A program made the position numbers and the translations under genes. The notes beneath the pieces were generated by a model. That model made no database searches, was not told the origin of the DNA, and saw only the letters and a program-made list of their open reading frames with translations. Below are positions 1 to 13,447 of a DNA stretch of 50,425 nt, in pieces (the stretch's first letter is position 1; each line of letters opens with the position of its first letter). This DNA is from Pseudomonadales bacterium (GTDB taxonomy: Bacteria > Pseudomonadota > Gammaproteobacteria > Pseudomonadales > Pseudohongiellaceae), in contig JAJEGU010000013.1 of NCBI GenBank assembly GCA_022819645.1, forward strand, positions 1-50,425, written 5' to 3'.

Positions 1-875
1 AGAAGCTGATTGCGCTGCTGGAGGAGCAGAAGCAGGTCATGATTCACGATGCCGTCACGGGCCGGATCGATGTTCGCACCGGCAAGCCCTACCCCGCCTA
101 TAAGCACTCTGGCGTCGAATGGCTGGGGGATGTGCCAGCGCATTGGGATGTGCGGAGACTACGAAATGTTGGAGAAGCGCTAATTGGTCTGACATATGAT
201 CTTAGCGACATTGTTGACAGAGACGATGGACTGCTTGTGCTGCGCGCCTCAAACATTCAAGACGGCAAGATAGTTGAGGCCGACAACGTCTACGTTCGGT
301 GTCGAGTCCCCGACAAATTGCTCACAAGAGAGGGTGATATTCTCCTGTGCTCAAGAAGCGGAAGTCGATCTTTAGTAGGAAAGAATGCCCGAATCTATGC
401 CAAGTGTGCTGATGTAACATTTGGAGCTTTTATGACAGTATTTCGCAGCGCAAATAACGACTTCTTAGTGCATGCATTCAATTCGGAACTATTCGAGCGC
501 CAATCTGGAGCCTTCCTAACTTCCACGATAAATCAACTCACATTATCAATGCTCTACGGCATCAGAGTCCCATTTCCACCTATGGATGAGCAATCGGAAA
601 TTGTCTGTTACCTAAACGATGCAATCACGAACACAACACACGCCATCGACGACGCAAACCATGAAATCGAATTGTTCCGCGAATACCGCACCCGCCTTAT
701 CGCTGATGTCGTCACCGGCAAGCTCGATGTGCGCGAAGCAGCAGCCAATCTCCCGGAATTGGAAGCCGTCGCGGAAAGCAACGGCGAGATAACTCCAAAT
801 AAATGCGGTTCGCAACAATCCAACACAACCTTGCATAATGAGGCACCGCAAACAGCCCCGGGAGGCAGCTCGTGA
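1..875 (+). CDS. hsdS: Type I restriction-modification specificity subunit HsdS, 3' part only
   Basis: The reading frame is open from base 3 and has no start in the window, so this is the C-terminal part of HsdS, about 290 residues. It begins in the central conserved helix (EEQKQVMIHDAVTGRID), enters the second target-recognition domain at GVEWLGDVPAHWDVRRL, and ends with the distal conserved helix (LFREYRTRLIADVVTGKLD). HsdS subunits read a bipartite DNA target and hold HsdM and HsdR in the complex. The gene stops at a TGA that overlaps the GTG start of the Fic gene by 4 bp, so the two are co-translated. hsdM is not visible and presumably lies upstream, outside the window. The target-recognition domain is more AT-rich than the flanking helices, as is common for exchanged recognition domains. 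Family assignment is very secure; the specificity cannot be predicted. Confidence 0.93.
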   Translation, partial: KLIALLEEQKQVMIHDAVTGRIDVRTGKPYPAYKHSGVEWLGDVPAHWDVRRLRNVGEALIGLTYDLSDIVDRDDGLLVLRASNIQDGKIVEADNVYVRCRVPDKLLTREGDILLCSRSGSRSLVGKNARIYAKCADVTFGAFMTVFRSANNDFLVHAFNSELFERQSGAFLTSTINQLTLSMLYGIRVPFPPMDEQSEIVCYLNDAITNTTHAIDDANHEIELFREYRTRLIADVVTGKLDVREAAANLPELEAVAESNGEITPNKCGSQQSNTTLHNEAPQTAPGGSS

Positions 876-1729
876 AATCGTTTCGAGACAATCGGCTGCG
901 CGATTACGAAGCCCCTATGGGATGCGTCCTGCTGCTCAATGACATCGCCGAGTTCAAGGGTAAACAGGACATACTCGTTGGCGCGTCTCCAGAAGCATTG
1001 CAGACATTGCGGGACACCTCGACAATTCAAAGTGTCGAATCGTCCAATCGGATTGAAGGCGTCACCGTTTCGCAACATCGCCTGAGACCGCTCGTGCTGG
1101 AAAATGCCCGGCCAAAAGACCGTGCCGAGCACGAAGTGCTGGGCTATCGGCTGGCGTTCGACGAAATCTGCGCCGACCCCGGCGCCCTGCCCATTAACCC
1201 GGCAACGCTTAAACGCCTGCACGCGCTTTGCCAGTCCACCAGCGGCGATGCCGGCGAGTTCAAGCGCATCGACAACGAAATCGTTTCAATCTCGCCGGGG
1301 CAGCCGCCCTCTGTTCGTTTCCGCTGTCTCGCCGCATCCGAAACCCCGGAGGCAATCGAGGAGCTTTGCCTGCTCTATCGCTTCACGCTGGAACAGGACA
1401 ACGCGCCGCCACTCGTCGCCATCGCCGCGCTGGTGCTGGATTTCCTTTGCATCCACCCGTTTCGCGACGGCAACGGGCGCGTCTCCCGTTTGCTCACGCT
1501 ACTGGCGCTGCTTCAGCACGGTTACGAAATCGGCCGTTATATCAGCCTGGAACGCCTTGTCGAGGAGTCGCGCGAATCCTATTACGACTGCCTGCAGCAA
1601 AGTTCCCGGAATTGGCATGAAGCCGAACACGATCCAACCCCCTGGTTCAGCTTCTTTTTCGCTATCGTTCGCCGCGCCTGCTCCGAACTCGAAAAACGCT
1701 TGGGCGATCCGACCACAAATGGAAGTTGA
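872..1729 (+). CDS. Fic/DOC family protein with N-terminal inhibitory helix
   Basis: This 285-residue protein starts at a GTG overlapping the hsdS stop by 4 bp. It carries the Fic active-site motif HPFRDGNGR from about residue 195 (HPFx[D/E]GNGRxxR), with the catalytic His and the anion-binding loop intact. A candidate autoinhibitory motif of the form S-x-x-x-E-G is seen at residues 58-63 (SNRIEG), the arrangement of class II Fic proteins, where the Glu blocks productive ATP binding. Such enzymes usually transfer AMP from ATP to a protein hydroxyl. The target is unknown. Its place inside a type I restriction operon is seen in other bacteria and suggests a regulatory or guard role, but that is inference. 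All catalytic residues look intact, so the gene is probably functional. Confidence 0.9.
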   Translation: MKSFRDNRLRDYEAPMGCVLLLNDIAEFKGKQDILVGASPEALQTLRDTSTIQSVESSNRIEGVTVSQHRLRPLVLENARPKDRAEHEVLGYRLAFDEICADPGALPINPATLKRLHALCQSTSGDAGEFKRIDNEIVSISPGQPPSVRFRCLAASETPEAIEELCLLYRFTLEQDNAPPLVAIAALVLDFLCIHPFRDGNGRVSRLLTLLALLQHGYEIGRYISLERLVEESRESYYDCLQQSSRNWHEAEHDPTPWFSFFFAIVRRACSELEKRLGDPTTNGS

Positions 1730-1828
1730 GTCAAATACCCCAAGTGCCCGAACTCGGCAATGCCAAAGGTGATAAAACCGCCAGCAGCAAGTAATCTAGC
1801 CTCACTGAAACTGTGGGGTTGTGTGAAA

Positions 1829-2135
1829 ATGCGAAACATCACTGTATCCGTAGACGAGGAAACCCATCGTCAGGCGCGAATTCGGGCCGCGGAGCTTGAC
1901 ACATCCATTTCCGCCCTCGTGCGACGGTATCTGCAAAGCCTGGATTCCGACCCGGGGGATTTCCGATGCGGACGTTTCGGACGAGGTATCCTCCCCGGCT
2001 TCCGGTGAGGCAAGGAATCGGCGACGCGAGAAACTGCTCGAAGCGGTTGAGAAAATTCGTCAAACTTCGCCTGGCTTCAGCGCATCGGAAAACCTGCCTC
2101 GTGAAGAGCTATACGCTCGGGGGCGCTCGATTTGA
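1829..2135 (+). pseudogene. VapB-type ribbon-helix-helix antitoxin, frameshifted
   Basis: The N-terminal half (MRNITVSVDEETHRQAR, continuing to ALVRRYLQSL) is a CopG/RHH DNA-binding antitoxin of the kind paired with VapC PIN toxins. Near position 1950 the frame is lost: the original frame runs to a short stop at 2008, while the +1 frame continues with KLLEAVEKIRQTSPGFSASE and PREELYARG, a typical VapB toxin-binding tail (phenylalanine-rich segment plus [R/E]ELY). Joined together, the two halves make a normal antitoxin of about 100 residues. I therefore read it as one gene broken by a single indel. The toxin after it is also broken. The functional alternative, programmed frameshifting, is unlikely, since I see no slippery run at the junction. 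Confidence 0.72.
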
Positions 2136-2145
2136 GGATAGCGTA

Positions 2146-2409
2146 GTGCATTTTGTTGACTCCAACGTTCTGATCTACGCCGCAAGCCCCGACCCAGGCG
2201 AAGAGGACAAACATGAGATCAATCTTATCCGCGAATACCGCACACGCCTCATCGCCGATGTCGTCACCGGCAAGCTCGATGTCCGCGAGGCGGCCAAAAC
2301 ACTGCCGAACGCAGACCTATCCAGTTCCGTCGACGAAACCGATATAATGCAGGCTGAGTCGAAAGCCCCAAAGGTCAAATTCGGCAGCGTCGGGGAGGCG
2401 GACCTATGA
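2146..2409 (+). pseudogene. Chimeric remnant: VapC PIN-toxin N-terminus fused to an HsdS C-terminal tail
   Basis: From a possible GTG start the first 23 or so residues (VHFVDSNVLIYAASPDPGE) match the start of a VapC PIN ribonuclease, including the first catalytic Asp in FVDSN. The sequence then switches, in frame, to INLIREYRTRLIADVVTGKL, which is the distal helix of a type I HsdS subunit, followed by an acidic HsdS-like tail. The rest of the PIN domain, with the other catalytic acidic residues, is absent, so it cannot be an active toxin. The hsdS part resembles bases 661-755 but differs at many third positions, so it comes from a different hsdS allele rather than a fresh copy. The TGA overlaps the next ATG by 4 bp. 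It is best seen as a recombination scar left when an hsdS gene was lost. Confidence 0.75.
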
Positions 2410-2633
2410 CAAACTGGGACACCTGCCCGGCGGTGGAACGAAAGCCGGGGAAAGTCAGTGGCGCCTGGGTTTTTGCGGGCACACGTATTCCGTTGTATGC
2501 CCTTTATGAGAACCTTGCCAGTGGCGCCACGGTCGAGGAGTTCGTTGAGTGGTTCCCGGGCGTAGACGAGAAGCAGGTTCGCACGGTGCTCGAATACGAG
2601 GCCCGTGCGCTTAGAACGGCTCTGGCGCGTTGA
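2406..2633 (+). CDS. DUF433 family antitoxin
   Basis: This small protein of 75 residues has the DUF433 pattern: GAWVFAGTRIPLYALYENLA, followed by a helix-turn-helix-like segment (TVEEFVEWFPGVDEKQVRTVL). DUF433 proteins are antitoxins that partner PIN-like DUF5615 toxins. Exactly such a partner follows, with a 4-bp TTGA overlap, so the two are translationally coupled. It also overlaps the preceding remnant by 4 bp (ATGA). The pair is intact, unlike the VapBC pair just upstream. It probably binds its toxin and represses its own promoter, as is usual for the class, but there is no obvious separate promoter and it may simply be read from the restriction operon. Confidence 0.85.
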   Translation: MTNWDTCPAVERKPGKVSGAWVFAGTRIPLYALYENLASGATVEEFVEWFPGVDEKQVRTVLEYEARALRTALAR

Positions 2634-2956
2634 GGCTGCTATTTGACCAAGGCACGCCAGCCCCTCTCCGGAATCACCTTCCAACGCACTCCGTGGATAC
2701 GCTCGCGGAAAAAGGGTGGTCGGAAAAGAGCAACGGCGAGTTGCTAGATCTGGCTGAGATGGAGGGGTATCAGGTACTCGTTACTACCGACCAGAGCCTG
2801 AGACATCAACAGAATATCTCGGGCAAAAAACTCGGCATCGTCATATTGCTTTCAGCGAACTGGCCGCAAGTTCGCCGCTGTGTGTCGGAGATTGGCGAAG
2901 CGATCACTGCCGTGCAAACAGGAACGTTCATCGAAGTGCCGATAGGCGCCTATTGA
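2630..2956 (+). CDS. DUF5615 PIN-like toxin
   Basis: This 108-residue protein begins at a TTG that overlaps the stop of the DUF433 gene. The start RLLFDQGTPAPLRNHL carries the first acidic residue of the PIN-like fold, LVTTDQSLRHQ supplies the central Asp of a (T)DxD/N-like motif, and IVILLSANWPQVRR is the usual last strand and helix. Such proteins are predicted RNases, the toxin half of type II DUF433/DUF5615 modules. The gene stops one base before the GTG of hsdR, so it looks like part of the same transcription unit. The unusual start codon and overlap suggest its dose is set by coupling to the antitoxin. The toxic activity has not been shown and is inferred from the family. Confidence 0.85.
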   Translation: MRLLFDQGTPAPLRNHLPTHSVDTLAEKGWSEKSNGELLDLAEMEGYQVLVTTDQSLRHQQNISGKKLGIVILLSANWPQVRRCVSEIGEAITAVQTGTFIEVPIGAY

Positions 2957-2957
2957 C

Positions 2958-5711
2958 GTGGCGACGGACACCTCCGAACTCGGTCTCGAACGCCTGATCT
3001 GCACCGCGCTGGCGGGACACCCATGCGAGCCTCCCGGAGCGGCTGCTGTCGGCGAGCCGCCCGCCGGCTACGGCACACCCACTCCGGGCAACGAACAAGC
3101 ACAACAACGCTTCGCCCGGAATCGCTTCACCGTCACCCGGCAATTGCGCTACAGCCGCGACGAAACCCAGCGCTCACTGGATATCGCGCTCTTCATCAAC
3201 GGCCTGCCGGTCATCACTTTCGAACTGAAGAACAACCTGACCAAACAGACTGTTGACGACGCCATCGCGCAATACCGCCGGGACCGCAATCCGTGCGAAA
3301 AACTGTTCGAACTTGGCCGCTGCATCGCCCATTTCGCCGTCGATGAAGCCGAAGCGCGTTTCTGCACGCATCTGAAAGGCAAGGCATCGTGGTTTCTTCC
3401 CTTCAATCGGGGATGGAACGACGGCGCGGGCAATCCGCCCAATCCGAACGGCATCAAGGTGGATTATCTCTGGCGTGAAGTGCTGACCCGCGAAAACCTG
3501 ACCGGCATTCTCGAAAACTATGTCCAACTGCTTGAGATTCGCGACGAGAAGACAAAACGGAAGAAGCGCAGTCAGGTCTGGCCGCGCTATCACCAACTCG
3601 ATGTCGTGCGCAGCCTGCTTGCCGATACCGCGGCGAACGGCGCGGGGAAAAGATACCTGATCCAGCATTCGGCCGGCAGTGGCAAGAGCAACTCCATCGC
3701 CTGGCTGGCGCACCAATTGATCGGGCTGGCACGCGACGGCGCCGCCGTTTTCGACTCGATCATCGTCGTGACCGATCGGCTGATCCTGGACAAACAGATT
3801 ACCGGAACCATCCGCCAATACGCACAGATCGGCGCCACGGTCGACCACGCGCAGCGTTCGGGCGACCTGCGCCGATTCATAGAATCGGGCAAGAAGATCA
3901 TCATTTCCACGGTGCAGAAGTTTCCCTTCATTCTCGACGAAATCGGCAACGAGCAACGCGGCCGGAATTTCGCCATCATCATCGACGAGGCGCATTCCAG
4001 CCAGGGCGGGAAAACCAGCGCGGCGATGGCGCAGGCGCTGTCCGAAGATGGCGCAGAGGGCGAAGACGAGACATTCGAAGACCAGATTAACCGATTGATG
4101 GAGTCGCGCAAACTGCTTTCCAACGCCAGCTACTTCGCCTTCACCGCCACGCCCAAGAACAAGACTCTCGAGATCTTCGGCGCGGCCAGCCCGCAGCCCG
4201 ACGGCGCCATCAAGCATCTCGCTTTCCACAGCTACACCATGAAGCAGGCGATCCAGGAAGGCTTCATACTCGATGTGCTGGCCCAATACACGCCGGTTTC
4301 GAGCTACTACAAGCTCACCAAGACTGTAGAGGATGACCCTGAGTTCGACGCGAATAAAGCCCACAAGAAACTCCGGCGCTTCGTCGAAGGCCACGACCAC
4401 GCCATTCGCCTCAAGGCCGAAATCATGGTGGATCATTTTCACGAGAAGGTACTCGCGCAACGCAAGATCGGCGGCGAAGCCCGGGCCATGGTCGTTACCA
4501 ACGGCATTGAGCGGGCCATCCAGTACTTCCACGCAATCAAGAATTATCTGAAGGAACGCAAGAGCCGGTATCAGGCCATTGTCGCATTCTCCGGCGAACA
4601 TGAGTTCGGTGGAGCGAAAGTAAGCGAAGCCTCGTTGAACGGATTCCCTTCCCGCCTGATCGCCGAAAAGATTCAGGAGGATCCCTACCGTTTCCTGATC
4701 TGCGCGGACAAGTTCCAGACCGGCTACGACGAGCCGCTACTGCACACCATGTACGTGGACAAGACGTTGTCCGGCATCAAGGCGGTGCAGACGCTTTCCC
4801 GACTCAACCGGGCGCATCCCGGCAAGCACGACGTTTTTGTACTCGATTTCCTGAACGACGCGGATTCCATTCGCGAGGCCTTCGCGCCCTTCTATCGCAC
4901 AACCATTCTTGCCGACGAGACCGACCCCAACAAGTTGCACGACTTGCAGGCCGCTCTCGATGACGCGCAGGTGTACACGCCTGAACAGGTAGAGGGCTTC
5001 GCGAGCAGTTACCTTGCCGGAGCGCCCCGTGATCAGCTCGACCCGATTCTCGAAGCCTGCATCGATGTTTACAAGCGCGAATTGGACGAGGACGGGCAAG
5101 TCGACTTCAAAGGCAAGGCAAAAGGTTTCGTCCGGACCTACAATTTTCTTTCCGCCGTTCTGCCCTGGACCAACAAGGACTGGGAGACACGCTCGATCTT
5201 CCTCAATTTCCTGATCCCCAAGCTGCCGGCGCCGAAAGAGGAGGATTTGTCCAAGGGCATTCTCGAAGCCATCGACATGGAGAGCTATCGAGTCGAGAAG
5301 CAGGCGATGCAGAAGATCATGCTGCCCGACGAGGAAACCGAACTCGATCCGGTACCCACGGGTGACAGGGGCCACCGACCCGAACCGGAACTAGACCGGC
5401 TATCCAACATCATCAACCAGTTCAACGACCTCTTCGGCGACAGGGAATGGGAAGACGCGGATCGCGTCGCTGAATTGATCACCAAGACGATCCCCAAGCG
5501 CGTGGCCAAGGACGTGGCCTACAAGAACGCCCGACAGTACTCAGACCGGGAAAACGCCCGCATCGAACACGACAAGGCCCTCCTGCGCGTCGTGACCTCA
5601 ATCATGAAGGACGATAATCAGCTGTTCAAAGAATACATGGACAACGACAGCTTCAGGCACTGGATGACAGCCAGGGTGTTCGAGCTGACCACACAGCAAG
5701 CGAATCTCTGA
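2958..5711 (+). CDS. hsdR: Type I restriction endonuclease subunit HsdR
   Basis: HsdR cuts DNA and translocates it in the type I restriction complex. Visible features in order: a PD-(D/E)XK nuclease core with D75 (SLDIALF) and E89-x-K91 (FELKN); Walker A AGSGKS near residue 240; DEAH box near 343; further SF2 helicase motifs (YFAFTATPKNKT; LICADKFQTGYDEPLL; TLSRLNRAHPGK); and a helical C-terminus ending ELTTQQANL that probably docks on HsdM/HsdS. The protein is 917 residues, shorter than the roughly 1000 of close family members as I remember them. The shortfall seems to lie around residues 38-41, where PPAGYG runs straight into TPTPGNEQA (see findings). The start is a GTG two bases after the toxin gene. 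The enzyme is recognisable with all main motifs present, but the N-terminal deletion may weaken it. Confidence 0.95.
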   Translation: MATDTSELGLERLICTALAGHPCEPPGAAAVGEPPAGYGTPTPGNEQAQQRFARNRFTVTRQLRYSRDETQRSLDIALFINGLPVITFELKNNLTKQTVDDAIAQYRRDRNPCEKLFELGRCIAHFAVDEAEARFCTHLKGKASWFLPFNRGWNDGAGNPPNPNGIKVDYLWREVLTRENLTGILENYVQLLEIRDEKTKRKKRSQVWPRYHQLDVVRSLLADTAANGAGKRYLIQHSAGSGKSNSIAWLAHQLIGLARDGAAVFDSIIVVTDRLILDKQITGTIRQYAQIGATVDHAQRSGDLRRFIESGKKIIISTVQKFPFILDEIGNEQRGRNFAIIIDEAHSSQGGKTSAAMAQALSEDGAEGEDETFEDQINRLMESRKLLSNASYFAFTATPKNKTLEIFGAASPQPDGAIKHLAFHSYTMKQAIQEGFILDVLAQYTPVSSYYKLTKTVEDDPEFDANKAHKKLRRFVEGHDHAIRLKAEIMVDHFHEKVLAQRKIGGEARAMVVTNGIERAIQYFHAIKNYLKERKSRYQAIVAFSGEHEFGGAKVSEASLNGFPSRLIAEKIQEDPYRFLICADKFQTGYDEPLLHTMYVDKTLSGIKAVQTLSRLNRAHPGKHDVFVLDFLNDADSIREAFAPFYRTTILADETDPNKLHDLQAALDDAQVYTPEQVEGFASSYLAGAPRDQLDPILEACIDVYKRELDEDGQVDFKGKAKGFVRTYNFLSAVLPWTNKDWETRSIFLNFLIPKLPAPKEEDLSKGILEAIDMESYRVEKQAMQKIMLPDEETELDPVPTGDRGHRPEPELDRLSNIINQFNDLFGDREWEDADRVAELITKTIPKRVAKDVAYKNARQYSDRENARIEHDKALLRVVTSIMKDDNQLFKEYMDNDSFRHWMTARVFELTTQQANL

Positions 5712-6569: not shown

Positions 6570-7395
6570 CCCGGATATTGCATGAGCGGGTTGATTCGCC
6601 CCCGAATCCGCGATTTTCGAGACCTGTTCGGGCTTGATGGTTCCACCCGGCCGGAAACCGGACTGTCCGATACGGTTTCCAGAGACCAGGCCACGATTTT
6701 CGGGCGGTTTTTCCCGCGTGCGGGAGCGATCGGCGGATTGGGGACGAACGCGACCCCGGACCGGGTCCGCCCAAATGGAACGCGGGTCTGTCGTTGCGCC
6801 TATCCGGGTTGCAGTCTGGCCGCGGCGGTGTGGAACAGTTCCTGGTGGGGACAGGAACCGGACAGCACCAGGCGGCGGGGCGGGCTCGCGAAGGATGCGA
6901 TGAACTGCTCCACCAGCGCCTCGTGCAGGCGCATCGCGTCTTCCCGGCCCATGCCCTGCTCGAGGCGGCACAGGGTGGAAGCGCCGGCGAGCGGCCCGTC
7001 GGTGTCCACCGCCGTTTGCAGCGCCGGGTCCGAGCGCAGCTCTTCGTGGTCGTTCAAATCCTCGTATCCCAGCGCCAGCGCGTACACCCGCTGCCGGACC
7101 ATCGTCAAAAGCGAGTGCCGGCAACTGGCCTTGCGACGCGTATCGGTCAGCGCTTTCGCGGCCCGGTCGGTCAATCCCGGCATCCGGTCGGCCTGGCGCA
7201 GCAGGACAGCGCCGCCGCCGGAGGTGATGGCGCCGCCGGAAAAAGAGGTCTCCACGAGGCGACCCTTGCAGCTTGGAAAACGAATGGGTTCCAGATTACA
7301 ATCCGTCATGGGTGCAGTCCTTCGATATCGGCTTAACTAACTGAATTATATCGAAATACAGGGTGTCCCGCCCGCCTGTTCATGCAATATTCGGG
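6570..7395 (-). mobile_element. IS1380-family element with internal deletion (copy 1)
   Basis: The ends are imperfect inverted repeats: CCCGGATATTGCATGAGCGG at 6570-6589 and the reverse complement of CCCGAATATTGCATGAACAG at 7376-7395. The transposase lies on the minus strand from 7309 and has lost its middle, leaving about 145 N-terminal residues joined to the last 20 or so. About 230 bases of non-coding tail separate the stop from the left end. With both ends kept and the core lost, it resembles a deletion derivative that could be mobilised only by a full-length relative. The 3' tail is shared with the second copy at 8363-8652. No clear target duplication is visible. Confidence 0.82.
6800..7309 (-). 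pseudogene. IS1380-family transposase, internally deleted
   Basis: The 169-residue frame begins MTDCNLEPIRFPSCKGRLVE and keeps the IS1380-type N-terminal region: TSFSGGAITSGGGAVLLRQ, RVYALALGYEDLNDHEELR, STLCRLEQGM and LHEALVEQFIASFASPPRRL. In intact relatives this leads into LDFDATDxxxHGxQE, the first part of the DDE catalytic core. Here it jumps instead to LSGSCPHQELFHTAAARL, which matches the extreme C-terminus. The catalytic core is therefore missing and the protein cannot transpose. The deletion is in frame, so a small DNA-binding-like peptide could still be made and might act as a repressor, but that is speculation. Confidence 0.85.
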
Positions 7396-7408
7396 TTAGC
7401 ATTTTGGT

Positions 7409-7873
7409 ATGGTTCAAGAAGATGCGTTACTGGAAAGAGAAAAATGGTATGACTCAAGCATGACTGATCGCACAACAGAGCGACTGAAACACCTTGAGTT
7501 TCTACAAGCAAACATCACCCGAATGCATGAGGCATCGACATCCATGAAGCGCCTCGCAATTTTGGCATTTGCTTTGGGAGGCTCTTTGGCAAGGTACCTT
7601 CAGGATGTAACCACTATAGGATTAACGGTCGCAGTGATTGCCGCCATTTGGGCGCTCGACTCCAAGTATCTCCAAGTGGAGCGTGCATACAGGGCACTTT
7701 ATAATCAAGTAAGGGCATTGCCTTACACCGAACCAACTTCATTCGATTTGACTCCACCTATAAGCAAAGCTTTACCTTTAAGTGAACTATGTAGTTGGTC
7801 AACCGTAGTATTATATGGCCCGCTGATCATACTCCTTACTGCAATATGGTTATGTGCAGATTGGACCCCATAG
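7409..7873 (+). CDS. Small multi-pass membrane protein partnered with a TIR-like protein
   Basis: This protein of up to 154 residues has a charged N-terminal helix (TERLKHLEFLQANITRMHEA) and then three hydrophobic stretches: LAILAFALGGSLARYL, IGLTVAVIAAIWAL and, near the C-terminus, VVLYGPLIILLTAIWLCA. From memory, small membrane proteins of the pattern HLEFIQ..I.RM...S..(I/M)K, with a later LD..YL..ERxYRxLY motif, recur next to TIR-like DUF1863 genes. Here the second motif reads LDSKYLQVERAYRALYNQV. Such proteins resemble SLATT/2TM predicted pore-forming effectors. An internal ATG at 7460 (MTDRTTERLKHLEF) fits the family start at least as well, and neither start has a strong ribosome-binding site. 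The gene begins only 13 bases after the IS terminal repeat. The region is markedly AT-rich. Function is inferred: a membrane effector triggered by its TIR partner. Confidence 0.7.
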   Translation: MVQEDALLEREKWYDSSMTDRTTERLKHLEFLQANITRMHEASTSMKRLAILAFALGGSLARYLQDVTTIGLTVAVIAAIWALDSKYLQVERAYRALYNQVRALPYTEPTSFDLTPPISKALPLSELCSWSTVVLYGPLIILLTAIWLCADWTP

Positions 7874-7917
7874 ATTGTTGGCGCTTTCATTATTAGTAAG
7901 GAGTTAGGAGAAAAGTA

Positions 7918-8295
7918 ATGACAAAAAAACGTGTATTTGTAAGTTTTGATTTCGACAATGACAAAACTCTAAAAGATTTTATTATTGGTCAGGCTCGCCT
8001 TCCGGACTCACCCTTTGAGGTCGCGGATCACTCATTAAAGGAATCCCAACCAGAAAGATACTGGGAGCAAAAAGCTCGAGCAGCAATAAGTCGCGCAGAA
8101 ATCTTTATAGTTATGCTGGGACCATCTACAAAGCGATCCTCAGGAGTGTTAAAGGAAGTACGAATGGCCAATGAATTAGGAAAACATAGATTCCAAATTA
8201 TAGGTTACTCTAATGGAAGTTCAGATTGGTCCGTACCTGGTGGCGGACGCACCTATTCTTGGAGTTGGCAAAATCTTAAGAAATTGCTCGCCTAA
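7918..8295 (+). CDS. TIR-like domain protein (DUF1863 / ThsB-type)
   Basis: The 125-residue single-domain protein opens with a TIR-like first strand, KKRVFVSFDFDND, then FIIGQARLPDSPFEVADHSL, a central EIFIVMLGPSTKRSSGVLKE and MANELGKHRFQIIGYSN. This is the MTH538/DUF1863 fold used by ThsB, the sensor subunit of Thoeris systems, which turns NAD+ into a signal molecule when phage is sensed. E80 in VLKEVRMA is in the place where a catalytic Glu would be expected. A good ribosome-binding site (AAGGAGTTAGGAG) precedes the ATG, and the gap to the membrane gene is 44 bp, so the two form an operon. There is no ThsA (SIR2-SLOG or Macro) gene nearby, so the membrane protein is the likely effector. Fold assignment is fairly secure; enzymatic activity is inferred. 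Confidence 0.82.
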   Translation: MTKKRVFVSFDFDNDKTLKDFIIGQARLPDSPFEVADHSLKESQPERYWEQKARAAISRAEIFIVMLGPSTKRSSGVLKEVRMANELGKHRFQIIGYSNGSSDWSVPGGGRTYSWSWQNLKKLLA

Positions 8296-8362
8296 ATGAT
8301 AATGCCAAAAGACTATTGAAAGTTCATATTGAACAGGCACGTGAATGGATTCAGCGCTATAG

Positions 8363-8652
8363 CCCGAATATTGCATGAGTGGATTGAAATTGCCGTGAAT
8401 CCGTGTTTTTCGCGGCCTGTCATTGCGTGACGGTTTGGCGGCAACCGAACCGTTGTAGCCCGTTTTTGGGATGTTCACCGCGATTTTCGGGCAATATTCC
8501 CTCTCCGCGGGCGCGACCTCCGGATACGGGGCGAGCGTGTTCCCGGGCAAGAGTCGCCCGAGTGGAAAGCGGGTTTGCCGACGGGTTTATCCGGGTTGCT
8601 GCCTGGCCGCGGCGGTATGGAACAGTTCCTGGTGGGGACAGGAACTGGAGAG
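8363..8652 (-). mobile_element. IS1380-family 3' end remnant (copy 2)
   Basis: It begins with the terminal repeat CCCGAATATTGCATGAGTGG (8363-8382) in the same orientation as copy 1. It ends inside the last codons of a transposase on the minus strand (SCPHQELFHTAAARQQPG then stop). The 3' tail resembles the one in copy 1, with the best match at the terminal repeat and at the coding end (8590-8650). The rest of the transposase and the other terminal repeat are absent. Nothing recognisable follows in 8653-8838. Confidence 0.78.
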
Positions 8653-8838
8653 CAGCTGAGTACATGGTCAAGGACGTGGCCACCACCAGTGCGTCAGGTA
8701 ATCAGGAAGACGTGCTGGCGGTAATGTATCAGATGATTACCATCTCAATACAGACAGTAGGCTCAAATTGAATACATCCAAGGCCTCACTGACATAAAAT
8801 ATGCTTGGTCCAATACAAAATTTACAACTGATGAATTT

Positions 8839-9144
8839 TCATTGCTCCATATCCTTCGAATTTTTGAGTTTGAATTCTGCCGCTTTTAATGCACTTTCGC
8901 TGAACAAGTCGCTGTGTCGCAATATGACTGCTTCAAATGTTAAGTGCAACTGATTCGAATCCCTGAGTTTTTTGAAACCAGATTGTATTTCGGAATTGAT
9001 TGCCATTCTTGACAACGCATCAACCGCGCCATACCTTTCAATCATTTGTCTGGTTCGAGTTGCTGGCGCACCGATTAGTTTTTCGTAATGCACAGTTACT
9101 TCTCTTACCTCTTTCAGTAGATCAGAAATTTTAGATTTTGTCAT
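8839..9144 (-). CDS. Small hypothetical protein in the defence island
   Basis: This 101-residue protein (MTKSKISDLLKEVREVTVHY at the start) is predicted to be mostly helical. The segment TRTRQMIERYGAVDALSRMA, followed by SGFKKLRDSNQLHLTFEAVI and HSDLFS, has the look of a compact helical domain that I recall as a C-terminal add-on in assorted DNA-modifying and mobile-element proteins, but I cannot name the family. A clear ribosome-binding site (GGAG, 8-9 bases before the ATG) supports the start. The 129-base gap between it and the nuclease gene upstream is AT-rich and probably carries its promoter. No signal peptide or membrane segment is visible. Function unknown; its company suggests a link with mobile or defence functions. 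Confidence 0.6.
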   Translation of the reverse strand: MTKSKISDLLKEVREVTVHYEKLIGAPATRTRQMIERYGAVDALSRMAINSEIQSGFKKLRDSNQLHLTFEAVILRHSDLFSESALKAAEFKLKNSKDMEQ

Positions 9145-9273: not shown

Positions 9274-10290
9274 TTATTCTAAAAAAAGTTGTAATTCATG
9301 AACAAGTTTTTTTGCCTCTGAAATGGATAAGTATGGCACCTTAATTGTTCGAGCCCAATAGAAACTTTTCCCCGTGATCTCCTTAACGCTTTTAAATGGC
9401 ATCGCTTTCGGATCAGTCCCGCGATGAAGAATTGGCGTGATGAATTCGACATCCCGATACAGTGCATCTTCAACACCGCAGGCACGAACCCGGCCAGGTC
9501 GAACTTTCGCCGCTGCAACTACTCCTGACCATCTATGCGAGAAAAACACAATATCACCAACATTGATGTGTTCCACAAAGCGTTTGGCATCACCGAATGC
9601 AGCTACCCGCTCATGTTCCATCATGTACCAGATAGAGTCTTCATTATAAGTCCTGTTCGTATCGAACAATATACCTTTCTCATCTGCGGGGTTTCTGTGT
9701 TTGTCATATGGTAGGGCAAAAAATTCCAAGTACCTCTCGCTTGCCAATTCGTAGATCCTATAAGGTAAGAAATCAATGGATATCCCTTGCGACTTCCAAT
9801 AATTAGCCGCACTGATCAAGCTATCGTCGGCGGCACTACCGATAACCACTAAGTGTTGCTGACGATTAAAGTTCTCTACTCCAAGAGATTGCTCTAGATC
9901 AAAAGCCTCTTTATGCGCTTCATTTAGCTCCTTAAAGTCTTCTGAGTACTTCTGGTACATTTCCTGAAGTTGTGCGTATCTCCACTGGCCTGCATTCTGA
10001 GCATAGAGCAACACCTGATGCACGGCCCCTTCTCCAGCGTCACTCCGTTTTAACTCGAAGATGGTAAGGTCGCCAGCTTCGTTTAGCGCATAGATATCGG
10101 CCATAGGTTGACCTTGATGCTCTTGGTGTATTGGCATAAGTCCCGTATCTTCATAAAGGACTCCTAGAATATTTTGAGCAATGAGGTGCTCCAAATCCTT
10201 TTCAAGACTGCCAAAACTTGCGAAATCTTTATAAACAACTGGTTCGATACTATCGAACTGTTTTTTCGTCATATTGAGTTTGTACAGCAC
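9274..10290 (-). CDS. PD-(D/E)XK (NucS/DUF91-like) nuclease fused to a PUA/EVE-like domain
   Basis: The 338-residue protein has two parts. Residues 25-110 form a PD-(D/E)XK nuclease core with E31, D65 (MADIYAL), E79-x-K81 (LTIFELKR) and Q92 (HQVLLYAQNAGQW), the layout of the NucS/DUF91 group of endonucleases. A helical linker and a second alpha/beta segment (QQHLVVIGSAADDSLI) follow. Residues about 219-338 (SIWYMMEHERVAAFG, VGDIVFFSHRWSGVVAAAKV, YWARTIKVPYL) look like a PUA/EVE-type barrel, a fold often used to read modified bases. The start is taken as the GTG at 10290 because GGAGGAGG lies 9 bases before it; an ATG lies six codons further in. It is the last island gene before the tRNAs. A modification-dependent restriction enzyme is the simplest reading, but unproven. 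Confidence 0.78.
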   Translation of the reverse strand: MLYKLNMTKKQFDSIEPVVYKDFASFGSLEKDLEHLIAQNILGVLYEDTGLMPIHQEHQGQPMADIYALNEAGDLTIFELKRSDAGEGAVHQVLLYAQNAGQWRYAQLQEMYQKYSEDFKELNEAHKEAFDLEQSLGVENFNRQQHLVVIGSAADDSLISAANYWKSQGISIDFLPYRIYELASERYLEFFALPYDKHRNPADEKGILFDTNRTYNEDSIWYMMEHERVAAFGDAKRFVEHINVGDIVFFSHRWSGVVAAAKVRPGRVRACGVEDALYRDVEFITPILHRGTDPKAMPFKSVKEITGKSFYWARTIKVPYLSISEAKKLVHELQLFLE

Positions 10291-10366
10291 TTGTCGCGTT
10301 CCTCCTCCAGTGTTTTAAGCACTACTCGTATTCACGCTGAACCCGAAACCGTTCCTTAAAACAAAT

Positions 10367-10440
10367 TGGAGGCTGGGGTCGGAATCGAACCGGCGTACGC
10401 GGAGTTGCAGTCCGCTGCATGGCCACTCTGCCACCCAGCC
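10367..10440 (-). tRNA. cysT: tRNA-Cys (GCA)
   Basis: The minus strand reads GGCTGGG at the 5' end, pairing with CCCAGCC, discriminator U, and an encoded CCA at 10369-10367. The anticodon loop is ACTGCAA (GCA). The T-arm has the usual GGTTCGATTCC. It follows tRNA-Gly in the same direction, as in the glyW-cysT pair downstream of pgsA in enteric bacteria. The defence island starts straight after its 3' end. Confidence 0.96.
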
Positions 10441-10524
10441 TTCGTTTGGGGGCACTATAGCAAATCGCCGATGCAGATTCCCGCGCCGGTGGCGCGTCTC
10501 GGCTGACTTTGCTGGTTGAGGAAT

Positions 10525-10600
<76 letters not shown>

Positions 10601-10674
10601 ATCGACAGGCGGCATATTCTAAACGCTATCGGTTTCGAGTCAAGCTGCTTCTGCCATAGCAGGAGATTCGGCAG

Positions 10675-10744
10675 GAGATTCTGCGACTTCGCTTCGCTGC
10701 GCGCAGAATGACTGGTGGGGGGATTCGCTACGCGCAGAATGACA
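10675..10744. repeat. REP-like palindromes downstream of pgsA
   Basis: A full palindrome, GAGATTCTGCGACTTCGCTT through GCGCAGAATGAC (10675-10712), is followed by a half copy (10719-10744) that abuts the pgsA stop codon. The same sequence recurs in many gaps of this window. Confidence 0.85.
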
Positions 10745-11293
10745 TTAGGCCTGGTCTGAGTCGCGCAGGCTTTGCCGGGCGCGGTGGAAGTATTGGCCCA
10801 TCGACCATAGCGCCAGGATCGCGGATAGGTAGATCAGGCCCGCGCCGAGCAGCCAGAGCAGGCGCGGTTCGCCGTCTTCGGGCAGCAGCAGGGCGATGAT
10901 GGCGATCATCTGGATCGTCGCTTTCAGCTTGCCGGAGAAGGCCACGGCGACGCGTTTGCCCCTGGCCGCGGTCCATTCGCGCAAGGCGGAGATCGCCAGT
11001 TCGCGCACGACGATGACGGAGACCGGCAGCAGCAGCGCCGGATACGCCGCCAGCAGCACCAGCGAAACCACGACGACGAGCAGTTTGTCGGCGACCGGGT
11101 CGAGGAAGGCGCCGAATTCGGTGGCCTGGTCGAGCTTGCGGGCGAGATAGCCGTCGAGCCAGTCGGTCAGGCTGGCGACGGCGAAGACCGCGGCGGCGAG
11201 CAGGTGGGCCTGGGGGAGGTTCGAGTAGTAGAAGCCCAGGATCAGCGGAATCAGGAGTATGCGCAGGACGGTCGTCAGATTTGCGTAATTCAT
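10745..11293 (-). CDS. pgsA: CDP-diacylglycerol-glycerol-3-phosphate 3-phosphatidyltransferase
   Basis: PgsA makes phosphatidylglycerophosphate from CDP-diacylglycerol and glycerol 3-phosphate, the committed step to phosphatidylglycerol and cardiolipin, in the inner membrane. The 182-residue protein shows the CDP-alcohol phosphotransferase signature D-x2-D-G-x2-A-R-x8-G-x3-D-x3-D (DWLDGYLAR, then GAFLDPVAD), with all the acidic metal ligands present. Several hydrophobic helices flank it. The length is normal. It lies just downstream of uvrC and upstream of tRNA-Gly/tRNA-Cys on the same strand, a long-conserved gammaproteobacterial order, which supports the assignment. Confidence 0.97.
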   Translation of the reverse strand: MNYANLTTVLRILLIPLILGFYYSNLPQAHLLAAAVFAVASLTDWLDGYLARKLDQATEFGAFLDPVADKLLVVVVSLVLLAAYPALLLPVSVIVVRELAISALREWTAARGKRVAVAFSGKLKATIQMIAIIALLLPEDGEPRLLWLLGAGLIYLSAILALWSMGQYFHRARQSLRDSDQA

Positions 11294-11408
11294 GCTCGCT
11301 TCTTCTATTCGCTCGATCGGGAAAATGGCTCAATTGCCGAAACGCGACGATCAGCGGCGCACCCCTCGTCGAGTCCGGCGCCGCGCAACCCCGAGTATAG
11401 ATCAACCA

Positions 11409-13253
11409 TCAAAAAGCGCCGTGCAGGTGCTTGTATATTACTTCGGCCATCTGCCGGCTGATGCCGTTGACCTTGGCGAGTTGCGTTTCGCTGGCGCGGA
11501 ACAGTTGCTGGCGGCCGCCGAAATGGCGCAGCAGTTCGCGCCGCCGGGCCGGGCCGACGCCGGGAATGCTTTCCAGGAACGAGGTCTTGCCGGCCTTGGC
11601 GCGCCGGCGGCGATGGCCGGCGATGGCGAAGCGATGGGCTTCGTCGCGCACCTGTTGCAGCAGGTGCAGGGCCGGGGAGATTGAATCCAGGCTCAGTTCC
11701 TTGCTCTTGCTGCCCTGGCGCAGGATCAGGGTTTCCTGGCCGGGGCGGCGGCTGACGCCCTTGGCGATGGCGAGCAGGGGGAGGTTTTCGACGCCGAGTT
11801 CTTCGCAGACTTTCGCCGCGCGGCCGAGTTGGCCTTCGCCGCCGTCGATGAGCGCCAGGTCGGGTATTTTGCCTTCGCCGGCGAGCAGGCGCGTGAAGCG
11901 CCGTTTCAGCGCCTGTTCCATGGCGGCGTAATCGTCGCCCGCGGTGACGGCCTTGATGTTGAAGCGCCGGTAGTCGCTTTTGGCGGGGCCGTTTTCGTCG
12001 AAGACGACGGCGGAGGCGACGGTTTCCCGGCCGGCGGTGTGGCTGATGTCGTAGCATTCGAGCCGCGCGGGGACTTTTTCCAGTTTCAGCGCGCGTTGCA
12101 GGAACAGCAGGCGGCGGCGGATGTTCTGCCGGCTGGCGAGCAGGGTTTCGAGGGACTGGCGCGCGTTGGCGCCGGCCATTTCCAGCCAGCGGGCGCGATG
12201 GCTGCGCACCCGGGCGGCGAGTTTCACCTTGCGTTCGGCGACGTAACTCAGCGCGGCTTCGATCTTTTCCGCTTCCTCGGGCAATTCGGGCACGATCACC
12301 TCGCTCGGCATGAGGCTGGCCTTGCCGCCGGAGAGGTAGACCTGGGAGATGAAGGCGGCGACGACGTCGGTGGCGTCCTGGGCGAGCCGGAACTGGGGGA
12401 AATGGCTTTTCGAATCGATGATGCGCCCTGCCCGCACGTGGATGACGTGGACGCAAGCGTAGGGCTGGTCGAGTTCGGCGGCGATGATGTCGGAGTTGCC
12501 GCCCTTGTTGGCGACGGCCTGCTTGTCCTGGATGCGGCGCAGGGCGGCAATGCGGTCGCGGATGACGGCGGCCTTCTCGAATTGTTCGAGGGCGGCGGTG
12601 GCTTCCATGTCTTTGGCCAGCTCGGTGAACAGCCGGTCGCTCTTGCCTTCGAGGAACAGTTTCGAGTAGCGCACCTGTTCGGCGTATTCCTCTTGCGAGA
12701 CGAGGCCGACGCAGGGCGCGGTGCAGCGCTTGATCTGGTGTTGCAGGCAGGGACGGGTGCGGTTGCTGTAATAGCTGTCCTCGCATTGGCGCACCTGGAA
12801 GACCTTTTGCAGCACGTTGAGGCTGTCCCTGGTCGAATGGGCGCTGGGGTACGGGCCGTAGAAGACGCCCTTGCCGCGGCGGCTGCCGCGGTAGAAGGAG
12901 AGCCTGGGGAAGTCCTGGTGTTCGGTGAGCAGGATGTAGGGGTAGGACTTGTCGTCGCGCAACTGGATGTTGTAGGTGGGCCGGTGCCGCTTGATCAGCG
13001 ACTGTTCGAGCAGCAGCGCTTCGGTTTCGCTGTCGGTGACGGTGACTTCGATGCCGGCCACCTTGTTCAGCATGGCCAGGCTGCGCGCGTTCAGGGCGGA
13101 GCCGCGGAAATAGCTGCGCACGCGGTTGCGCAGGTTGGCGGCCTTGCCGATGTAGATGACCTTGCCGGCGCCGTCCTGCATCTGGTACACCCCGGGCCTG
13201 CGCGTGAGGCCGGCGATGTAGCTTTCGTGATCGAAGGCGTTTTTTGCTGTCAT
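11409..13253 (-). CDS. uvrC: UvrABC excinuclease subunit C
   Basis: UvrC makes both incisions around bulky DNA lesions once UvrB is loaded. The 614-residue protein contains, in order, the GIY-YIG nuclease (GVYQM...VIYIGKAANLRNRV) for the 3' cut; a Cys-containing segment (RPCLQHQIKRCTAPCVG); the UVR UvrB-binding helix (AALEQFEKAAVIRDRI); the RNase H-like domain for the 5' cut (ECYDISHTAG, LALIDGGEGQL, RDEAHRFA); and tandem helix-hairpin-helix motifs (ESIPGVGPARRRELL, VNGISRQMAEVI). I prefer the ATG at 13253 (MTAKNAFDHESYIAG). An in-frame ATG at 13280 would add nine residues and has no better ribosome-binding site. pgsA follows after 115 bp. Confidence 0.97.
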   Translation of the reverse strand: MTAKNAFDHESYIAGLTRRPGVYQMQDGAGKVIYIGKAANLRNRVRSYFRGSALNARSLAMLNKVAGIEVTVTDSETEALLLEQSLIKRHRPTYNIQLRDDKSYPYILLTEHQDFPRLSFYRGSRRGKGVFYGPYPSAHSTRDSLNVLQKVFQVRQCEDSYYSNRTRPCLQHQIKRCTAPCVGLVSQEEYAEQVRYSKLFLEGKSDRLFTELAKDMEATAALEQFEKAAVIRDRIAALRRIQDKQAVANKGGNSDIIAAELDQPYACVHVIHVRAGRIIDSKSHFPQFRLAQDATDVVAAFISQVYLSGGKASLMPSEVIVPELPEEAEKIEAALSYVAERKVKLAARVRSHRARWLEMAGANARQSLETLLASRQNIRRRLLFLQRALKLEKVPARLECYDISHTAGRETVASAVVFDENGPAKSDYRRFNIKAVTAGDDYAAMEQALKRRFTRLLAGEGKIPDLALIDGGEGQLGRAAKVCEELGVENLPLLAIAKGVSRRPGQETLILRQGSKSKELSLDSISPALHLLQQVRDEAHRFAIAGHRRRRAKAGKTSFLESIPGVGPARRRELLRHFGGRQQLFRASETQLAKVNGISRQMAEVIYKHLHGAF

Positions 13254-13447
13254 GTGAAGGGGTTGCGAATGTCCATACACGCGGATTGAAAAGCTTAGCG
13301 AACAGCGGGCAGTTGCTCAACCAGCGTATGTTTCGCTGACGATTTTAGCCTTGCTGGAATGTGGGTGTCCCGCGATTCCCTCGCGATTCCGGGAATGTGG
13401 ATGTCCCGCGATTCCGCCGCGATTCCGCTGCGATTCGCGATTCTCAT

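Follow-up and report, generated by a model that had tools for sequence, protein, structure and literature searches.

A short ThsB-type TIR gene paired with a PDC-M50A membrane-protein gene between two IS1380 remnants: a candidate anti-phage unit resembling Thoeris

The gene pair and its surroundings

The window analysed here is the whole stretch of 50 425 nt (contig JAJEGU010000013.1 of the Pseudomonadales bacterium assembly GCA_022819645.1), within which an AT-rich unit of 967 bp at positions 7396–8362 (no strand assigned) carries two intact genes and is bounded on both sides by IS1380 ends. Gene 1 (7460–7873, + strand) codes for a membrane protein of the PDC-M50A family and gene 2 (7918–8295, + strand) for a short ThsB-type TIR protein of 125 aa, with a gap of 44 bp between them. 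The G+C content was 0.44 at 7501–8500, compared with 0.575–0.69 in every 1 kb bin from 10.5 kb on. A preliminary description, made from the sequence alone, had placed two genes 44 bp apart in an AT-rich unit against GC-rich surroundings and exactly between IS ends at 7395 and 8363; our ORF calls and G+C bins agree with the former statement, and the coordinates of the latter are right to the base.

The ORF of gene 1 spans 7409–7873 (154 aa), and its relatives begin to align at the ATG at 7460, from which the protein has 137 aa. A clear Shine–Dalgarno sequence is absent from gene 1, and the TIR gene has a good one (AAGGAGTTAGGAGAAAAGTAATG, read off the sequence). A promoter scan gave none above chance for the pair. 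The frame at 8277–8362, after the TIR stop, was considered as a gene remnant and rejected: it matched copies of the same locus and otherwise gave a single 20-residue match (E 0.87).

Type I restriction genes are located at 39–5711, consisting of an HsdS-like ORF and HsdR (2958–5711; PADLOC REase_I, 3e-47), with a Fic-like ORF (872–1729) between the two; HsdS and Fic were named by eye from the translation. At 9274–10290 (− strand) lies a homologue of PADLOC PDC-S11 (2.5e-22) with weak matches to NucS-type nucleases.

The IS1380 remnants and the movement of the pair

The left-hand element, IS1 (6570–7395, − strand), is an internally deleted IS1380-family remnant whose transposase fragment (6800–7309, − strand) matched NF033539 at 5e-29, below the full-length cut-off of that model, and PF13701 at 1e-42. 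IS2 (8363–8656, − strand) is a remnant of the same family, of about 294 bp, which retains one end only. The inverted repeat TCATGCAATATTCGGG at 7380–7395 is found as its exact reverse complement at 8363–8378. Elsewhere in the genome, a different contig carries a full-length copy that measures 1326 bp, has the same ends (with one mismatch at one end) and is bordered by TTAG on both sides; compared with this copy, both remnants lie in the identical orientation. By score, the left part of IS1 was best matched by one copy (96%) and the right part by another (92%). The same-orientation IS1380 ends described earlier are thus borne out by the family matches, the perfect inverted repeats and the shared direction of the remnants and, given that a congener (G415) shows this arrangement too, at 97% identity, the matches and repeats place the arrangement beyond chance.

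The earlier proposal that the 967 bp unit travels as the passenger of a composite element was not sustained, since both ISs are remnants, each of the two genes is present as one copy in the genome, with no further copy of the pair, and the congener carries the same locus at the same site, including both IS junctions. When 40 other gene-1 loci were scanned, none contained the inverted repeat of the window within two mismatches. Weighing against this rejection, a stretch of low divergence from the congener has its left edge at the IS1 end: 7396–9144 differs by 1.1% (19/1749), compared with 3.8% (153/4007) for 9274–13280 (p = 2e-9). This suggests that the 1.75 kb stretch including IS2, and not the 967 bp unit alone, may be of more recent shared origin than its surroundings, and hints at a possible exchange of a stretch larger than the cassette; a slower substitution rate may be an alternative account of the low divergence. 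ISEcp1 is an example of one-ended mobilization. Over both genes, the congener comparison yielded seven differences, four of them residue-changing, which are too few for purifying selection to be shown. On another contig of the window's genome (C42, L056:1207–3843), two same-orientation IS1380 ends lie 2.6 kb apart around other transposase-like ORFs, an arrangement that, judged by eye, is perhaps an IS inserted in an IS.

Gene 1 is predicted to encode a three-helix membrane protein

Gene 1 matched all four PADLOC PDC-M50A models (1e-19), placing it within this family, and all 39 proteins of the gene-1 alignment (39/39) likewise matched PDC-M50A, while a comparison of gene 1 with Pfam returned no family match. 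Its AlphaFold2 model (pLDDT 92) contains helices at residues 4–47, 51–86 and 113–135, and the product of gene 1 is accordingly modelled as a three-helix membrane protein. Residues Q16, R21, D67 and E74 are invariant in the 39-row alignment. The register of the modelled helical hairpin would bring R21 opposite the E74/R78 region and K30 opposite D67, just below the membrane.

Searches for SIR2, STALD, macro and caspase domains gave no match in gene 1 at E 1, and its relatives produced only weak, unrelated matches. The SLATT family, to which the preliminary description had looked for the membrane protein, found no support, as none of the 39 aligned proteins matched any Pfam SLATT model at E 0.1. 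An hhalign comparison of the gene-1 profile with SLATT_4 and SLATT_2 gave probabilities of at most 1%, a comparison that is blind across SLATT subfamilies, given that the controls reached 79% within SLATT_4 and only 0.1% for SLATT_4 versus SLATT_2.

Five actinobacterial plasmid records (L011 and L152–L155) have gene 1 fused to a HIT domain, with gene 1 lying inside a HIT-annotated gene; in the one fusion that was scanned, both domains were present in a single protein. The HIT family corresponds to ThsC in PADLOC, and the HIT domain is a nucleotide-binding fold. A separate HIT gene stands beside the membrane-protein gene in a haloarchaeon and a Streptomyces (L158 and L161).

Gene 2 encodes a short ThsB-type TIR

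Gene 2 matched PF08937 above the cut-off, gave a confident TIR-fold model and matched ThsB in fold, supporting the assignment of the small gene to the ThsB type of TIR proteins and supplying the ThsB-type TIR protein expected of a Thoeris system. The glutamate that the preliminary description had picked for variants, E80, proved to be invariant in all rows (80/80) of the TIR alignment A5, as was F7. This alignment comprises 70 of the 80 kept short-TIR loci described below, the window, four plasmid loci and five viral loci; it omits L061, L078, L089, L115, L119, L120 (which has a stop in the matched stretch), L125, L126, L127 and L133. According to Shi et al. (PMC11204291), NADase TIRs carry Phe or Ala at a position where the ThsB subfamilies of TM-macro systems carry Tyr, and by the aligned range to EcThsB2, on which the placement rests, F7 would fall at this position.

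Against the PADLOC ThsB models the match of gene 2 was weak (3e-7), and against PDC-M50B there was no match at E 1, so that gene 2 is not assigned to PDC-M50B; three of its short-TIR relatives matched that model weakly (0.0015 to 0.008).

The two genes are tightly linked across phyla

A search of plasmid records found a TIR gene beside gene 1 in 11/11 records with gene-1 relatives, a set to which a single Bradyrhizobium species contributes two records and a single Mycolicibacterium strain two plasmids; in L003, L005 and L006 the adjacent TIR ORF was unannotated or 'hypothetical' and was recognized by its sequence. Among 398 sampled genomes of the phylum, gene 1 was present in six, the window's included, and in all five others (5/5) a TIR ORF was adjacent or within about 250 bp, one of these genomes having gene 1 split over two frames. 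In six further hand-picked records (6/6), which included an archaeal plasmid and a Vibrio phage, a TIR gene adjoined gene 1 or was separated from it by one gene; in the Vibrio phage, the gene-1 relative stands beside a gene noted as ThsB. The pair thus recurs as the preliminary description had anticipated, and its genetic linkage is tight across phyla.

Relatives in 133 plasmid records were obtained with a PDC-M50A protein of Desulforapulum, and gene 1 was found in one of 37 other relatives searched. Phage records yielded nothing with the window's gene 1 as query and three Vibrio phages with the Desulforapulum gene-1 relative. In viral contigs, neither window protein used singly as query found a relative, and a five-row TIR alignment found 10 loci, five of which were placed on the TIR tree, all with caspase-type loci.

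Gene 1 alternates with ThsA beside the short TIR

Genome contigs were scanned with the five-row short-TIR alignment, neighbours playing no part in the selection; this gave 390 relatives, of which the best 80 were kept, and neighbours were counted in the sequence retrieved around the short TIR, which reached at most about 4 kb to either side. Among these best 80 of 390 loci, 30 had PDC-M50A, 26 had ThsA and one (L104) had both, as compared with about 10/80 loci expected to have both by chance (Fisher p = 6e-6). Two of the ThsA proteins were checked individually and contained SIR2_2 and STALD, with matches to PADLOC ThsA at 1e-185 and 3e-206, and the rest were assigned by the profile of that cluster. 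Of the 30 PDC-M50A loci, one (L061) is the window locus as it occurs in the congener and two (L062 and L083) have the gene on the opposite strand to the TIR; in 26 of the 30, the gene was within 300 bp of the short TIR and on the same strand. L026 and L090, on contigs of equal length, are probably from the same genome. The remaining 25/80 loci had neither partner, although the profiles identified a TIR-long or SLOG neighbour in 21 of them, four having none of the three; Pfam analysis of five such neighbour proteins identified two with SLOG and three with TIR_2 and without SLOG. In L104 (198–1967), the only locus of the best 80 with both effectors, a ThsA-like ORF of 290 aa stands in one row with the short TIR and the membrane protein.

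On the tree of 80 TIRs, the PDC-M50A label required 14 changes, at least five of them forced by well-supported branches, compared with 19.6 on average when labels were shuffled, indicating that the label is partly inherited. With PDC-M50A and ThsA rows alone, six changes were required. The tree labels used stricter distances, under which 22 rows count as PDC-M50A and 22 as ThsA, and the tree itself is built on few columns and leaves many forks open. On this tree, the partner of the short TIR switches repeatedly. These switches and the near-exclusive exchange with ThsA put gene 1 in the place of the effector, and the simplest account is then that gene 1 does what ThsA does, namely act on a signal made by the TIR.

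We therefore favour, with somewhat better than even confidence, the view that the pair is a small anti-phage unit working like Thoeris with a different effector, in which the small TIR probably signals to the membrane protein to stop phage infection. In the mechanism that we propose, the short TIR protein would detect phage, self-associate and, through E80, convert NAD+ to a signal of the ADP-ribose type. The membrane protein would respond by means of the conserved polar residues in the juxtamembrane hairpin of helices (Q16, R21 and K30 against D67, E74 and R78), cluster or open, and harm the membrane, halting the infected cell ahead of phage production. The type I HsdR and the PDC-S11 homologue among the neighbours provide supporting context, as do the fused or separate HIT domains, the invariant F7 and the gene noted as ThsB in the Vibrio phage. 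Several observations weigh against this explanation: gene 1 has no recognizable nucleotide-sensing domain, the short TIR matches the ThsB models weakly and PDC-M50B not at all at E 1, no promoter was above chance, the few differences from the congener give no demonstration of purifying selection, and other loci have a second TIR.

The roles could also be reversed: the TIR would kill by depleting NAD+, and the membrane protein would serve as its sensor, anchor or restraint, possibly by monitoring the envelope for incoming phage. NAD+ depletion is how several bacterial TIR proteins kill (PMC12847820), and the Pfam scan of gene 1 showed no known effector or sensor domain. However, ThsA accompanies this TIR subfamily in 26 of the best 80 loci, gene 1 takes the place of ThsA, and type I Thoeris relies on the TIR for the signal and on ThsA for NADase activity (PMC12847820), so that we regard a killer TIR as quite unlikely. 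A toxin–antitoxin or housekeeping module unrelated to phage, which would fit with the literature search having given no phage test of the family, is highly improbable in view of the ThsB family, the exchange with ThsA, the defence-type neighbours and the carriage on plasmids and phages.

Completeness of the unit

The preliminary description held that the pair acts with no ThsA, and we found none in the pair; a STALD search of the whole genome of the window (97.7% complete) was also empty, while the same search detected all three (3/3) ThsA-holding control genomes. A second TIR gene was found in 17/30 PDC-M50A loci and 22/26 ThsA loci, and in L106, L110, L114 and L134 it lies 2–86 bp after the short TIR. 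In the window, IS2 starts 67 bp past the TIR stop, in a place often taken by the second TIR, and gene 2 is the sole PF08937 match in the genome. Together, these observations mean that a gene may have been lost and the unit may be incomplete. On this evidence, the unit might be a non-working remnant of a three-gene system (membrane protein, short TIR and second TIR) that lost its last gene when IS2 arrived, there being no other PF08937 (ThsB-type) TIR in the genome. Yet the profiles used showed gene 1 and the short TIR as the sole members in 12/30 PDC-M50A loci, among them that of the congener; five of the 12 (L077, L078, L101, L108 and L109, of which L077 and L078 carry near-identical genes) have about 4 kb of flanking sequence to either side, and both ORFs of the window are intact and 99% identical in the congener. 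We thus consider a decayed remnant unlikely, and a working two-gene unit remains our preferred reading.

Relation to known systems

The two-gene kind is already catalogued as the phage defence candidate PDC-M50 of PADLOC-DB, since gene 1 matches PDC-M50A and PDC-M50B is itself a ThsB-like TIR; the window differs in that its TIR is of a shorter subfamily, with no PDC-M50B match at E 1. A literature search, with most subscription-journal papers outside its scope, returned no paper under the name PDC-M50, and broader searches gave no experiment; most PDCs lack experimental validation, according to PMC12988326. The PADLOC models for PDC-M50A and PDC-M50B being already known, what appears from the sequence comparisons to be new is the pairing of PDC-M50A with a short ThsB subfamily and its exchange with ThsA.

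Type I Thoeris (ThsA SIR2-SLOG and ThsB) is related to the pair in that 26 of the best 80 loci have the short TIR subfamily next to ThsA, whereas the pair of the window has a membrane protein instead and a STALD match is absent from its genome. Type II Thoeris (TM-macro ThsA and ThsB) shares with the pair a TIR plus a membrane-acting effector (PMC11204291, PMC12847820), the TM-macro ThsA being driven by His-ADPR (PMC12847820, PMC11204291), but gene 1 has no macro domain and its TIR has Phe, not Tyr, at the position assigned from aligned ranges. A TIR next to a membrane protein is likewise found in the TIR plus transmembrane system of the P2-like phage AC1, whose three genes protect E. coli against lambda, LF82_P8 and P2 (PMC9122126), and in the TIR plus 2TM SLATT pairs of Firmicute phages, a linkage described in PMC9503650, although gene 1 matches no SLATT model. 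Unlike the membrane-acting Thoeris and AC1 systems, gene 1 has no recognizable ligand domain of any kind. None of the Thoeris effectors (ThsA SIR2-SLOG, TM-macro or type IV caspase-like) was recognized in gene 1, nor was a STALD match found genome-wide; for this reason the pair is not filed as Thoeris, even if we lean towards its working like one.

A bolder and more doubtful proposal, which we put forward tentatively, is that PDC-M50A represents a further class of Thoeris effector. It would consist of three helices with no separate sensor domain, would use its own juxtamembrane stalk to read an ADP-ribose signal made by the TIR and, in both bacteria and archaea, would have displaced ThsA of the SIR2-SLOG kind on several occasions next to a single short ThsB subfamily, while HIT, fused or adjacent, would read or clear the signal. 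The matter is of interest in that, in many distant microbes, the membrane protein appears with the same TIR sensor family where the killer protein of Thoeris would usually stand. If the proposal were true, Thoeris effectors would be interchangeable plug-ins behind one sensor family, one of them a membrane protein pared down to about 137 residues and lacking any known ligand domain; the pair would then be a minimal TIR-to-membrane signalling pair and would give meaning to a widespread catalogue entry.

More distant short TIRs, in L008, L009, L010, L141–L143, L147 and L148, form a separate clade (with L137). In the plasmid loci L008–L010, caspase-like genes (that of L009 named by eye) and a further TIR lie alongside, an arrangement reminiscent of type IV Thoeris.
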